Source: Asticcacaulis endophyticus (GTDB taxonomy: Bacteria > Pseudomonadota > Alphaproteobacteria > Caulobacterales > Caulobacteraceae). From it: 64,000 nt of DNA. The stretch lies in contig NZ_BMZB01000002.1 of NCBI RefSeq assembly GCF_014652575.1, positions 391,482 through 455,481 of the forward strand. Reading direction: 5' to 3'. The translations under genes and the position numbers were made by a program. The stretch's first letter is position 1, and the number at the start of each line of letters is the position of its first letter. Shown one piece after another: positions 6,018 through 10,280 of this stretch. Under the pieces are notes generated by a model, which was not told the DNA's origin, ran no database searches, and worked only from the letters and a program-made list of their open reading frames with translations.

Positions 6018-6842
6018 ATGCGACAATTTCTGATCGACGCCTTTGCGCGCGCGCCGTTTATGGGCAATCCGGCGGCGGTGGTCGAGCCGTTCGATGCGTG
6101 GCCGTCCGACGATTTCATGAGCCGTCTGGCCATGGAAAATAATCAGGCCGAAACCGCCTATATGGTCAGAACGGCTGAGGTCAATGTGTTTGGCCTGCGC
6201 TGGTTCACCCCGGCGGTCGAGGTCAATCTGTGCGGCCATGCCACTCTGGCGGCGGCCCATGCCCTTTTTACTGAGCTGGGGCTGGAGGCCGAGGTTGTGT
6301 ATTTCGATACGCTTCATGCGGGCCGGTTGAGCGTGCGTCGTATGGGCGGCCAGCTTGAAATGGACTTTCCGGCCTATCCGGTGCAGGCCATCGCGTCCGT
6401 GCCTGAGATTGAAGCGGTGATCGGTCAGACGGCGGTGGCGACCTTTGGCGGGCCGATGCTGATCCTGCAACTGGCCTCAGAGGCCGCCGTGCGCGATCTG
6501 AAATTCAATGCCGGTGAGATAGGCTATCCGCAAGCCTGCACTCTGTTTGATGCCGCCCATGTGGTGGTGACGGCGTTTGCGGATGAAGGCAGCCCCTATG
6601 ATGTCATCAGCCGGTTCTTTGCCCCCGGCTTTGGCATTGCCGAAGACCCGACGACGGGGTCGATGCACTGCGCCCTCATGCCGCTCTATGCGGGCCTGAC
6701 GGGTAAGACTGTGATTGAGTTCCATCAGGCCTATCCGCGTCGCGGTGGCGATCTTAGGTGCGAACTGGCCGGTGACCGCGTGAAACTGCGCGGGCGTGCG
6801 ATCACCACCCAGAGAACGGAAGTGTTAATCCAGCCGGTTTAA
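6018..6842 (+). CDS. PhzF family isomerase/epimerase-like protein
   Basis: A 274-residue member of the PhzF family (diaminopimelate-epimerase fold). The catalytic Glu45 lies in NQAETAYMV, and the family blocks NLCGHATLAA (around 75) and DPTTGSMHCAL (around 213) are intact. Most such chromosomal proteins have no assigned substrate, and nothing here suggests phenazine synthesis: no other phz genes are present. The stop codon overlaps that of the opposing lipoprotein gene inside a 19-base palindrome. Confidence 0.87.
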   Translation: MRQFLIDAFARAPFMGNPAAVVEPFDAWPSDDFMSRLAMENNQAETAYMVRTAEVNVFGLRWFTPAVEVNLCGHATLAAAHALFTELGLEAEVVYFDTLHAGRLSVRRMGGQLEMDFPAYPVQAIASVPEIEAVIGQTAVATFGGPMLILQLASEAAVRDLKFNAGEIGYPQACTLFDAAHVVVTAFADEGSPYDVISRFFAPGFGIAEDPTTGSMHCALMPLYAGLTGKTVIEFHQAYPRRGGDLRCELAGDRVKLRGRAITTQRTEVLIQPV

Positions 6843-6849
6843 CCGGCTG
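6831..6849. terminator. 19-base palindrome across two overlapping stop codons
   Basis: CAGCCGGTT-T-AACCGGCTG is a perfect inverted repeat with 9-base arms. It contains the TAA of phzF (+, 6840-6842) and the TAA of the DUF4349 gene (-, 6841-6839). A hairpin here would serve both transcripts, although T-runs are absent. Confidence 0.45.
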
Positions 6850-7720
6850 TGGGCTTGGACTTTGCTTTACGCTTGCGCCATAGCCTCCAACCAAACCAGC
6901 CGAGCGGTACAACGATCAAACCAAACGGTAGCAGAGCGGCGATCACCAGAATTATTGCGCCCAGACTGCTCATGGCCACACGGGTGAAGTCTGTCAAAGA
7001 GTCCACGACCGGAGAAAAGGCTGAACCGGGAGTGGCCAATGTCTCTGAGCGGTATTCCAGTGTCAGCCGTACCGTGGCCACACGTTTGCGCATAACCGCT
7101 AATGAGGATTGCAGGCTGTCAATCTCGGCCTGCACATTAGCCAGTGTGGTCTCTGCTTCGATAAGATCGGCAATCTTTCCAGGTTTTGATTTGATGATGT
7201 CGATCAGCCGGTCACGCAATGCGGTCTTGTTCTTAAGGCGCGCTTCGGAATCGACAATTTGCAGGCTCAGGTCTTCGCTGTTGATGTTTTGTGAGGTCAA
7301 CTGGCCACGGGACTTCTTGAGGTCGCCCTCAAGTCCGGCCTGAAAGGTTTTCAGCCATTGGGTAGATACGCGCAAAGCCATAGTTTGGCTCTTTTGTCCC
7401 GAAGCCTTGTTGCCGTATGAATTGGATGTGATCATCAGGCAGTTTTGCGGGCCCGCCTGATCACACAAGCTCTGATGGCTGGCGATCAGGGTATCAAGAC
7501 CGCGCAAAGGGGCTTCCATCGTATAAGTATATTCATAGGCCAGTTGCGGGAGGGCAAGTTCCTGACCCGGAACGGCGGTACTCTTCTTTACCGGCTCTTC
7601 GGACAGGTCAACCATATGAGTGGATATGGCTGCATCTTCATAGGCGCCTTCGGCGGGTTTTGAGCATGCGCCGATCAAAGCCAGCCCGGCTAAAAGACCA
7701 AACAACCGAATATACCGCAT
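6839..7720 (-). CDS. DUF4349 lipoprotein
   Basis: A 293-residue envelope lipoprotein. The signal sequence MRYIRLFGLLAGLALIGAC ends in a lipobox (LIGAC), favouring the start at 7720 over 7735. A DUF4349 region follows, with an antiparallel coiled-coil at about 140-210 (AETTLANVQAEIDSLQSSL). One membrane helix lies near residues 245-270, before a basic C-terminus (WRKRKAKSK). Function unknown. Confidence 0.82.
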   Translation of the reverse strand: MRYIRLFGLLAGLALIGACSKPAEGAYEDAAISTHMVDLSEEPVKKSTAVPGQELALPQLAYEYTYTMEAPLRGLDTLIASHQSLCDQAGPQNCLMITSNSYGNKASGQKSQTMALRVSTQWLKTFQAGLEGDLKKSRGQLTSQNINSEDLSLQIVDSEARLKNKTALRDRLIDIIKSKPGKIADLIEAETTLANVQAEIDSLQSSLAVMRKRVATVRLTLEYRSETLATPGSAFSPVVDSLTDFTRVAMSSLGAIILVIAALLPFGLIVVPLGWFGWRLWRKRKAKSKPTAG

Positions 7721-7780
7721 TGAAAGTCCCCCCATTTTTCTGAAATGCTAACACGGGCAATAAAAACGGGCAATGCTTAC

Positions 7781-8953
7781 CTAGACCACCGACAACGCCC
7801 GCGCCAGTGCCTTGATCAGGTCGTCGGCATCTTCGAGGCCGATCGACAGGCGCAGTAGGCCGCCGGTGATACCAGCCGTAGCTTGCGCTTCTGGTGACAT
7901 GGCGGCGTGGGTCATGGAGGCCGGATGGACGATCAGGCTTTCGACCCCGCCCAGAGATTCGGCCAGTGAAAACAGATCAACCACATCCAGAACGGCTTTG
8001 ACGGCGTCCAGCCCGCCCTTAAGCTCAAAGCTCATCATCGCGCCAAATCCGGCCTGCTGACGGGCGGCCAGATCGTGCTGCGGGTGGGATTTCAGGCCGG
8101 GATAAAAGACCTTTGATACCACCGGATGGCTTTCCAGATATTCGGCCACGGCCTGCGCCGACTGCTGCTGCTGTTTGATGCGCACAAACAGGGTGCGCAC
8201 GCCGCGTAAGGTCAGATACGAATCGAACGCGGGCGCGGTCGAGCCGACGCAATTGGCCCACCAGCGGTAAAGCGTCAGGTCTTCTGCGGTCGTGCAAACC
8301 AGCGCCCCGCCGATCACGTCCGAATGGCCATTGATATATTTGGTGGTCGAATGAACCACAAAGTCTGCGCCGAACTTGATCGGGTTTTGCAGGGCGGGCG
8401 AAAGAAAGGTGTTGTCAACCGCGACCTTGGCCCCCGCTTTATGGCCGAGATCAATCAGCTTTTGCAGGTCAACGACGCGCATCAGCGGATTGGACGGGGT
8501 TTCAATCAGCAACATGGCCGTCGGCTGCGACAGGGCCTTAAGCACCGCCGCGTCATCGCCCTGATCGACATAGACGAGGTCAATCAAACCTTGTTTAGCG
8601 CGGGCATTCAACTGACGCTGGGTGCCGCCGTAGCAATCATGGGGGGCGACCACGCGGTTGTTGCCTTTCTCAAGCGGCTGCCACAGCAGGTCAATCGCCG
8701 CCATACCGGACGCCGTCATGACCGCGCCAATGCCGCCTTCGAGTTCGGCAATGACCTCAGACACGACTTCGCGTGTCGGGTTGCCGGAGCGGGCATAGTC
8801 AAAGGTGCGCTTCTTCCCAAAGCCTTCAAACGTGTAGTTCGACGACAGGTAGATCGGCGGCATGACCGCGCCGTGAGCCGTATCCGTATCGATGCCGATA
8901 TTGATGACGCGGGTCGAAAGCTTGGCGTCTTTGAGATAATCTTTTTTCGACAT
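7781..8953 (-). CDS. metB: Cystathionine gamma-synthase/trans-sulfuration PLP enzyme
   Basis: A 390-residue Cys/Met-metabolism PLP enzyme. Lys205 in STTKYINGHSD is the Schiff-base lysine; SGNPT (56-60) and the ETPSNPLMR block are family hallmarks. It would join an O-acylhomoserine with cysteine to form cystathionine (gamma-synthase) or use sulfide directly; sequence alone does not separate these from beta- or gamma-lyase activity. The gene starts 5 bases after metX on the same strand, behind the SAM riboswitch, which supports a biosynthetic role. Confidence 0.85.
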   Translation of the reverse strand: MSKKDYLKDAKLSTRVINIGIDTDTAHGAVMPPIYLSSNYTFEGFGKKRTFDYARSGNPTREVVSEVIAELEGGIGAVMTASGMAAIDLLWQPLEKGNNRVVAPHDCYGGTQRQLNARAKQGLIDLVYVDQGDDAAVLKALSQPTAMLLIETPSNPLMRVVDLQKLIDLGHKAGAKVAVDNTFLSPALQNPIKFGADFVVHSTTKYINGHSDVIGGALVCTTAEDLTLYRWWANCVGSTAPAFDSYLTLRGVRTLFVRIKQQQQSAQAVAEYLESHPVVSKVFYPGLKSHPQHDLAARQQAGFGAMMSFELKGGLDAVKAVLDVVDLFSLAESLGGVESLIVHPASMTHAAMSPEAQATAGITGGLLRLSIGLEDADDLIKALARALSVV

Positions 8954-8958
8954 GATAA

Positions 8959-9951
8959 TCAGTCTTCAAGTGAGTGTTTGACGATATCGGACACGCGCGC
9001 GATCTCTTTAAGGAACGCATCGTGGCCATAGAGGGATGGCAATTCAATGAACACGCTGTCCGACAGGCTTTCATACAAAGCCACCATGTCGGCATAGGGC
9101 ACCAGGCGGTCGGTCGGCACGGCGGCAAGGAATACCTTTGCCTTGATGTTCTTTGGGTCAACGCGGTGGCGATCGAGCGAATCCGACAAAGACACCCAGC
9201 GGTTCACATCCGACGCCGTATAGGCATCGCCGCGCGCCCGCAGGTAGTTGCAGACGGTATAGTTTTCACCAGCGACATCGGGGGCTACGCCATCAAAGCG
9301 TTCCAGAAATTCCTGCTCAGAGCGGTAGGTGGTCATGGCCAGTTGCCGCGCCAGGGATATGGCGTCGCGTTCATGGCCGGTTTGTTTCCCGAACATCAGT
9401 ATGCGTCGTTGCAGCCCGCGCATGGCGGTGGCCATCGGGTGGGCGCGATGAGCCGCAGAGATCACGCACAAACGCTTGACGACATCCGGATACAGCTCGG
9501 CAAAGGCAAGCCCAATCATGGCGCCGTAAGATGCGCCGATAAAGTCATGCACTTCATTCACGCCCAACTGATCGAGCAGCAGTTTCACCAGCCGCGCCTG
9601 ATCGTGGGTGGAAATGGTATAGACCTGATCGGCGGGCAGGGACGGGGCAAAGTCGATGCTTAAGACCCGCCAGTGATTAAGATCCAGCGCCTGATTAGGC
9701 CCCGCAACCCCTTCCCACCAGCCGGGGGCGGTGTCGGTCGAGTCTTCTTTTTGGAACAGGACACGGCTGGCTGAAATGCCGCCGATCGCCACGACCATAG
9801 GTGCGCTGGCCGGGCCATAGACACGGCCGATGGCATGGCTTTGCATCAGCTTTTGTCCGCTGGCGAGCCGAAAATCGGCAGGGATCGGTGCTGTCACATC
9901 AACGCCGGTCAGGTCGGGCAAGTGGTCCAAAGTCGCGGTCATGTCATCCAT
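8959..9951 (-). CDS. metX: Homoserine O-acyltransferase, MetX type
   Basis: An alpha/beta-hydrolase-fold enzyme that activates homoserine for methionine synthesis. The nucleophile elbow is GASYGAM, the acid lies in VPTDRLVPY, and the catalytic His is in SLYGHDAFLKE near the end. The frame stays open to 10131, but that extension translates the SAM riboswitch and its expression platform, so I place the start at the ATG at 9951 (or 9942); neither has a strong Shine-Dalgarno. About 330 residues. Whether the acyl donor is acetyl- or succinyl-CoA cannot be read here. It forms an operon with metB. Confidence 0.83.
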   Translation of the reverse strand: MDDMTATLDHLPDLTGVDVTAPIPADFRLASGQKLMQSHAIGRVYGPASAPMVVAIGGISASRVLFQKEDSTDTAPGWWEGVAGPNQALDLNHWRVLSIDFAPSLPADQVYTISTHDQARLVKLLLDQLGVNEVHDFIGASYGAMIGLAFAELYPDVVKRLCVISAAHRAHPMATAMRGLQRRILMFGKQTGHERDAISLARQLAMTTYRSEQEFLERFDGVAPDVAGENYTVCNYLRARGDAYTASDVNRWVSLSDSLDRHRVDPKNIKAKVFLAAVPTDRLVPYADMVALYESLSDSVFIELPSLYGHDAFLKEIARVSDIVKHSLED

Positions 9952-10051
9952 ATGGGCATCAAGCAAAACGGGCTCAATCGCGACCAGAAAATTATCATGA
10001 CGGGTGAGAAGATAAGACAGCTCTGCCGCAGACGGCGCGTGGCGTCTTCCT

Positions 10052-10161
10052 CTCATCTGTCGAAGATAAATCTTCGCAGGAGTTGGCACCATGCGATCCC
10101 ACGAATGGAAAAGCGGTTGCCCCAGCGTCAATGGGCCTGTCCCTCGGCTGGTCTCGATGAG
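10052..10161 (-). promoter_or_regulatory. SAM-I (S-box) riboswitch controlling metXB
   Basis: Read on the minus strand, P1 is CTCATC / GATGAG (10161-10156 and 10057-10052). P2 is CCAGC / GCTGG. The conserved core GAGGGACAGGCCC, GGGGCAACC and GGTGCCAACTCC appears in order, and P4 is CGAAGAT / ATCTTCG. These are the hallmark S-box sequences that bind S-adenosylmethionine. Downstream, TGAGA and AAGAC near the 3' side of P1 can pair with a later GTCTT...TCTCA, giving a competing hairpin. There is no clear U-run, so control may act on translation or by a Rho-type mechanism. Confidence 0.93.
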
Positions 10162-10169
10162 TAGGTTTC

Positions 10170-10198
10170 CTATGCCGTATTTTCTATAAAACCGTCAA
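10170..10198 (-). promoter_or_regulatory. Promoter of the metXB leader
   Basis: On the minus strand, TTGACG (10198-10193) is followed after 17 bases by GCATAG (10175-10170). Transcription would start about at the first base of riboswitch P1. The TTGACG element fits the alphaproteobacterial housekeeping consensus. Confidence 0.65.
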
Positions 10199-10280
10199 GG
10201 GGGATATGTGGCCATCTTGATTGCTTTAAGGCGCAGGGCCATGTTAGGCGCTTAATAATACCGCAGTGCCGGAGATGATC

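Follow-up and report, generated by a model that had tools for sequence, protein, structure and literature searches.

A SAM-I riboswitch in front of metX-metB in Asticcacaulis, with a possible switching role for the aptamer 5' strand

The window (the whole stretch of Asticcacaulis endophyticus DNA analysed here, 64,000 nucleotides) carries what its sequence identifies as a genuine SAM-I riboswitch before metX-metB, with an aptamer that should bind SAM. Control is most likely exerted at the level of translation, as folding models and analogy to a studied relative suggest. The fuller proposal, for which we see the balance of probability as even, is that the riboswitch turns off metX-metB translation at high SAM by means of a switch made by the aptamer 5' strand; we infer both the translational output and the identity of the switching strand. 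The mechanism had been left open by the first-pass annotation, and is narrowed here to probable translational control.

Scanned whole with cmscan, the 64-kb window has a single match at gathering level, to RF00162 (83.0 bits against a cut-off of 44.4, E = 4.2e-18). The match is full length and not truncated, and was kept as the best of its clan over overlapping families. A genome-wide search with RF00162 finds one SAM-I in this Asticcacaulis genome, at the same place, while SAM-II (RF00521) has no match in the window by cmscan or, under stricter filters, in the whole genome. The first-pass annotation had read the element as SAM-I and proposed an Infernal run with both models; its reading is borne out, with SAM-I significant and SAM-II without a match. 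The S-box core and the P1, P2 and P4 pairings that it described are likewise found, since all aptamer helices of the RF00162 model are there, with three model pairs non-standard. The aptamer fits the consensus of the classic Firmicute S-box over all 108 positions. SAM-I aptamers are marked by a kink-turn and by a pseudoknot joining the loop beyond the kink-turn with J3/4; letters fitting both occur in the RF00162 alignment, the model itself encoding no pseudoknot. The riboswitch adjoins the methionine genes metX and metB, a gene context that belongs to SAM-I. Features are collected in Table 1. The span first annotated comprised promoter and aptamer, and the expression platform, 10049-9940, falls outside it.

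Table 1. Positions in the window of the riboswitch, its platform elements and the genes downstream
Feature	Position	Strand	Remarks
-35 element TTGACG	10198-10193	-	28-32 nt 5' of the aptamer in 25/25 Asticcacaulis leaders
-10-like hexamer GCATAG	10175-10170	-	17-nt spacer after TTGACG; hexamer drifts among relatives
SAM-I (S-box) aptamer	10163-10050	-	RF00162 covariance model, model positions 1-108
Aptamer 5' strand CTCATCGAGACCAG (P1 5', J1/2, P2 5'), proposed switching strand	10161-10148	-	13 pairs with 9987-9973
P1 3' strand and next bases	10055-10044	-	pairs with 10018-10005 in the unconstrained fold
Anti-P1 strand GTCTTATCTTCTCA	10018-10005	-	12 pairs with 10055-10044, unconstrained fold
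GTCATG	10001-9996	-	partner CATGAC 9943-9938, covering the start codon in the OFF and unconstrained folds
Proposed switching element CTGGTCGCGATTGAG	9987-9973	-	pairs with the aptamer 5' strand or with 9963-9953
Probable metX start ATG	9942-9940	-	orthologous to starts chosen in relatives
metX, homoserine O-succinyltransferase family (PRK08775)	8959-9942	-	NF006449, 344 bits, cut-off 296
metB, cystathionine gamma-synthase	7781-8953	-	TIGR02080, 562 bits, cut-off 505

Profile models confirm both genes that had been named downstream, and metB starts 5 nt past the metX stop codon. A DUF4349 gene (6839-7735, minus strand) follows 45 nt past metB in the same direction and may belong to the operon. 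From the aligned leaders, the metX start is most likely the ATG at 9942, 108 nt 3' of the aptamer, with GGA at 9949-9947 as a weak Shine-Dalgarno sequence; the starts chosen for the other 24 Asticcacaulis lie 71-113 nt 3' of their aptamers. By that spacing we rejected two earlier candidates, the TTG at 10131 given in the list of open reading frames, which lies inside the aptamer, and an in-frame ATG in P1. A 19-codon open reading frame (9998-9939, minus strand, ATG at 9998) has several Met codons and a stop that overlaps the metX ATG. It was considered as a regulatory leader peptide and rejected, because the leader of a clade member, L004, differs in length such that this frame runs in line with metX.

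The retention of TTGACG at 28-32 nt before the aptamer in all 25 leaders makes a transcript start at P1 plausible on sequence grounds. Of the TTGACG/GCATAG promoter first proposed, the -35 half is conserved and the -10 half variable (GCATAA in 6 of the 25 Asticcacaulis leaders, CATAAG in 5, GCATAG in 4), and a consensus promoter scan reported no promoter-like site, GCATAG included. An aldehyde-dehydrogenase-like open reading frame begins divergently at 10266; its matches fall under the models' cut-offs.

SAM-I is present in every one of the 25 Asticcacaulis genomes searched (74.7-90 bits). Searches of wider samples, run under stricter filters with the loss of weak matches, find it in 77 of 249 genomes of the family, representing 4 of 22 genera, in 8 of 385 genomes of the class sample (7 above cut-off, two from the same family) and in 83 of 398 genomes of the phylum sample. 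The survey of relatives' metX leaders suggested at first pass is answered by these genus and family counts. The model for succinyl-type metX hits 76 of 248 family genomes, one genome fewer having been searched than for SAM-I, and the metX-positive genomes are the SAM-I-positive ones with the exception of G248. That genome is missing from the metX listing, yet metX adjoins its riboswitch in the L160 stretch. SAM-I and succinyl-type metX thus co-occur in the family sample. SAM-II was sought in 99 family genomes under stricter filters; none reaches the cut-off, and 2 have weak matches. Outside Asticcacaulis, 18 loci were scanned from a set of 41, and SAM-I lies close 5' of metX in 14 of them, SAM-II in one.

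The claim that an S-box is unusual in Alphaproteobacteria holds at class level (8/385), in agreement with excerpts of Barrick and Breaker 2007 (PMC2258182), which place SAM-I in some Alphaproteobacteria and call the class 'almost devoid' of it. One point needs correcting: the metX here belongs to the PRK08775 succinyl type, which is itself often accompanied by SAM-I, as the scanned loci show. Uncommon across the class, SAM-I is the rule in the genus and often precedes succinyl-type metX. The usual alphaproteobacterial SAM riboswitch, SAM-II (SAM_alpha, RF00521), is alike in ligand and target pathway, according to excerpts of PMC1273637 and PMC4239095, and differs in fold. Excerpts of Leyn et al. 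2014 (PMC4239095) treat SAH, SAM_alpha and SAM-SAH in Proteobacteria, and those of Sun et al. 2013 (PMC3766115) include four Caulobacterales genomes. Among the matches listed in one open library, no title concerns SAM-I in Asticcacaulis; Rfam-based genome annotation may well mark the element already.

PRK08775 succinyl-type metX is also found in Xanthomonas, and a recent import from there was considered. It is rejected by a MetX tree of 39 rows, in which Asticcacaulis and Lysobacteraceae fall in separate groups. Asticcacaulis lies inside a mostly alphaproteobacterial group (support 99/94, with the fork drawn open), the support for the Lysobacteraceae group is 96/81, and several branches are long.

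Several arrangements seen in these searches depart from that of the window. Both genomes searched from genus g4 of the family have SAM-I before metX-metB (90.0 bits at L072 in G048; 86.8 bits at L073 in G027), and in both a SAM-II-like element lies 87 bp from SAM-I on the opposite strand, the whole arrangement spanning L072 1307-1578 and L073 1501-1771. The SAM-II-like elements score 32.0 bits (L072) and 31.6 bits (L073), under the cut-off of 36, with the GATTTGA, GCTTGC and GCTAAAG core kept; the one in L072 sits before an aspartokinase-homoserine dehydrogenase gene. If real, this back-to-back pair counters the statement, in excerpts of the 2007 study (PMC2258182), that no species carries SAM-I and SAM-II together. 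At L023 and L034, from the same two genomes (G048 and G027), metX and metB apparently share a single open frame, 735 codons long at L023 and 732 at L034. Extra SAM-I copies in the family occur before a MetN-like transporter ATPase (L137 and L151; L137 was tested and falls under the model's cut-off) and before TonB-dependent-receptor-like genes named by eye (L140, L141, L163 and L164). Three matches in other Alphaproteobacteria (L039, L040 and L041) are 83 nt long and lack the P4 hairpin; downstream of two of them, L039 and L041, the longest frame is OsmC-type-like, named by eye. A Gemmatimonadetes MAG has SAM-II (L096 2410-2480, 40.3 bits) before the same metX type.

When the Asticcacaulis leaders are set side by side, a sequence CTGGTC..CGATGA appears a few dozen nucleotides past the aptamer, whose 5' strand TCATCGAGACCAG it matches as reverse complement. 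All 25 leaders have a single CTGGT. In every one of them the element can form a duplex with that strand, through 20 distinct 21-nt strings, and each leader scores below 0.05 against 200 shuffles. In the window, the duplex of the aptamer 5' strand with the element has an energy of -18.4 kcal/mol (0.010 against 200 shuffles). The competing stem noticed at first pass is also recovered computationally, as the 12-pair helix between the P1 3' strand with its next bases and the anti-P1 strand.

In the proposed mechanism, transcription would begin at or just 5' of P1. With SAM bound, P1 and P2 would be held together and the element kept in its hairpin, so that a start clamp, GTCATG with CATGAC and GGAT before the start with ATTT, would hold the leader OFF. 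Without SAM, the aptamer 5' strand CUCAUCGAGACCAG would quit P1 and P2 and pair with the downstream element, while the P1 3' strand would pair with 10018-10005; the start clamp would be broken and the leader ON. The fold computed with P1 and P2 forced has the GTCATG/CATGAC pairing over the start, ATTT/GGAT before it, and the element paired with 9963-9953.

Ensemble energies in the window are -80.4 kcal/mol with P1 and P2 forced, -80.7 kcal/mol with the alternative forced and -83.6 kcal/mol unconstrained, and the alternative lies below the P1 and P2 form in 24 of the 25 leaders, the exception being L002. Forcing the alternative in place of P1 and P2 raises the mean unpaired probability of positions -12..-5 in 23 of 25 leaders and of -18..+3 in 21, with AUG accessibility rising in only 13, and takes the start codon of the window from an unpaired probability of 0.13 to 0.55, a forced pairing that opens the start region partly by construction. 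The unconstrained minimum free energy fold of the window retains the clamp over the start as well as the hairpin of the element. It lies 2.9 kcal/mol under the ON form, so that the computed equilibrium by itself would keep the start mostly closed when SAM is absent. The switch is feasible in the window, and the SAM-free ground state as modelled is still closed.

Whether the pairing of element and 5' strand is under selection was addressed across loci. Since all 25 Asticcacaulis share one invariant aptamer 5' strand, covariation is lacking inside the genus and a within-genus swap control is uninformative. In 83 loci, grouped into 16 clades of our own definition, three of them set by the aptamer strand itself, each 5' strand pairs with its own platform at -13.57 against -11.78 for permuted partners (z -4.3, beating 20000 of 20000 permutations). 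Two composition controls move in the same direction, the reversed strand (z -2.0) and the complement (z -2.1); an upstream decoy gives z -1.1 and the next stretch of the aptamer z +1.7. By part, P1 gives z -3.0, and J1/2 with P2 alone is weak at z -1.6. In an anchored test, which placed the element by its invariant bases alone and could use 49 of the 83 loci (28 distinct rows), Watson-Crick pairing of the variable P2 base occurs in 18 of 28 rows against 9.8 expected, a count reached in none of 5000 permutations. With G-U counted it is 19 against 16.7 (304 of 5000), and the other four positions, by Watson-Crick count, give 371, 512, 130 and 1213 of 5000. Both tests exclude the repeats L165 and L166 (equal to L023 and L034) and the copies not before metX (L137, L140, L141, L151, L163 and L164).

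A clear example comes from L094, L095 and L100, of Thermomonas and relatives, which have ATCCATCAAGACCGG with TTCGGTCTTGCTGGA, L095 reading ...GACCGA. A cross-group swap is ambiguous: Asticcacaulis platforms favour their own aptamer in 16 of 16 cases, and of 32 other family platforms 18 favour a Brevundimonas-like strand and 14 the Asticcacaulis strand. Shuffle scores below 0.05 outside Asticcacaulis are found at 12 of 46 family loci (58 places were available and 12 not used), at 2 of 4 gammaproteobacterial loci and at 7 of 14 others; 4 of the 79 matches outside the family entered this test. Covariation support is real but partial, and weak at most positions; these sequence comparisons are suggestive of selection on the pairing, and not conclusive.

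The same data bear on a simpler translational platform in which only the P1 3' strand switches, the element being a hairpin arm and its match to the 5' strand a by-product. We consider this possible, if clearly less probable than the proposal above. The strongest own-versus-permuted pairing of all belongs to the P1 3' strand extended by 8 nucleotides (z -6.0), though without the extension its value is z -1.5. When the segment is folded in isolation, all 25 Asticcacaulis have the 5' arm of the element paired within a local hairpin, and only 3 have the GATGA-like half mostly unpaired. Much of the element's conservation could therefore be due to the hairpin alone, and an earlier idea, which placed the GATGA half in the loop of this hairpin in many relatives, was dropped on this count. 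Against the simpler platform, the variable P2 base lies outside P1 and, when Watson-Crick pairs are counted, varies in step with the element.

The nearest studied relative of the Asticcacaulis switch is the SAM-I of the Xanthomonas campestris (Xcc) met operon, described in excerpts of Tang et al. 2020 (PMC7270179) as mainly translational. As far as those excerpts go, both have a SAM-I aptamer followed by a homoserine O-succinyltransferase gene and then metB, in neither is a strong intrinsic terminator evident, Asticcacaulis having one weak terminator-like site, and the start region, sequestered in Xcc, is predicted to be so in Asticcacaulis. The Xcc Shine-Dalgarno sequence is hidden there even without SAM, as is the start in the unconstrained predicted fold of the window, and the Xcc anti-Shine-Dalgarno also binds uncharged initiator tRNA, a feature that these excerpts give for Xcc only. 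Xanthomonas loci have an element, CTCGATGGC, complementary to their own aptamer 5' strand, as in Asticcacaulis; platform sequences are otherwise unlike, and in Asticcacaulis the DUF4349 gene, not hom, follows metB. A broader reading is tentative and rather doubtful: a type of SAM-I in which the aptamer 5' strand is the switching strand, the SAM-free state undoes P2 as well as P1, and SAM-I and succinyl-type metX would travel as a cassette in Caulobacteraceae and Lysobacteraceae. As the start is predicted to be closed even without SAM, such a switch might depend on a further input, for example uncharged initiator tRNA, which serves in Xanthomonas.

Classic S-boxes end transcription, and the Asticcacaulis leader could do so when SAM is bound, through Rho or a weak hairpin, which we hold to be improbable. 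A weak terminator-like site lies at 10029-10017, with 5 pairs and the tail CTTATCTTCT (1 found, 0.2 expected), but its U tract is broken and it is seen by eye solely in the window's clade (L001, L003, L004, L005 and L021). In this the leader differs from the classic Firmicute S-box, having no proper U-tract terminator; the absence of a U-run stated at first pass is broadly right, this one weak site excepted. In Xanthomonas, excerpts of PMC7270179 give about 24% repression for a transcriptional fusion but about 98% for a translational one. It is very improbable that the aptamer has decayed into a relic that regulates nothing: nothing but the three non-standard model pairs was found for it, and the aptamer is kept throughout the genus and is distributed in the family sample as its metX gene is.

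The finding places SAM-I throughout a genus whose class has been called almost devoid of it, and links the riboswitch with a single type of metX in two classes. It is solid and mostly ordinary, and switching by the aptamer 5' strand, if it occurs, is its one testable twist.
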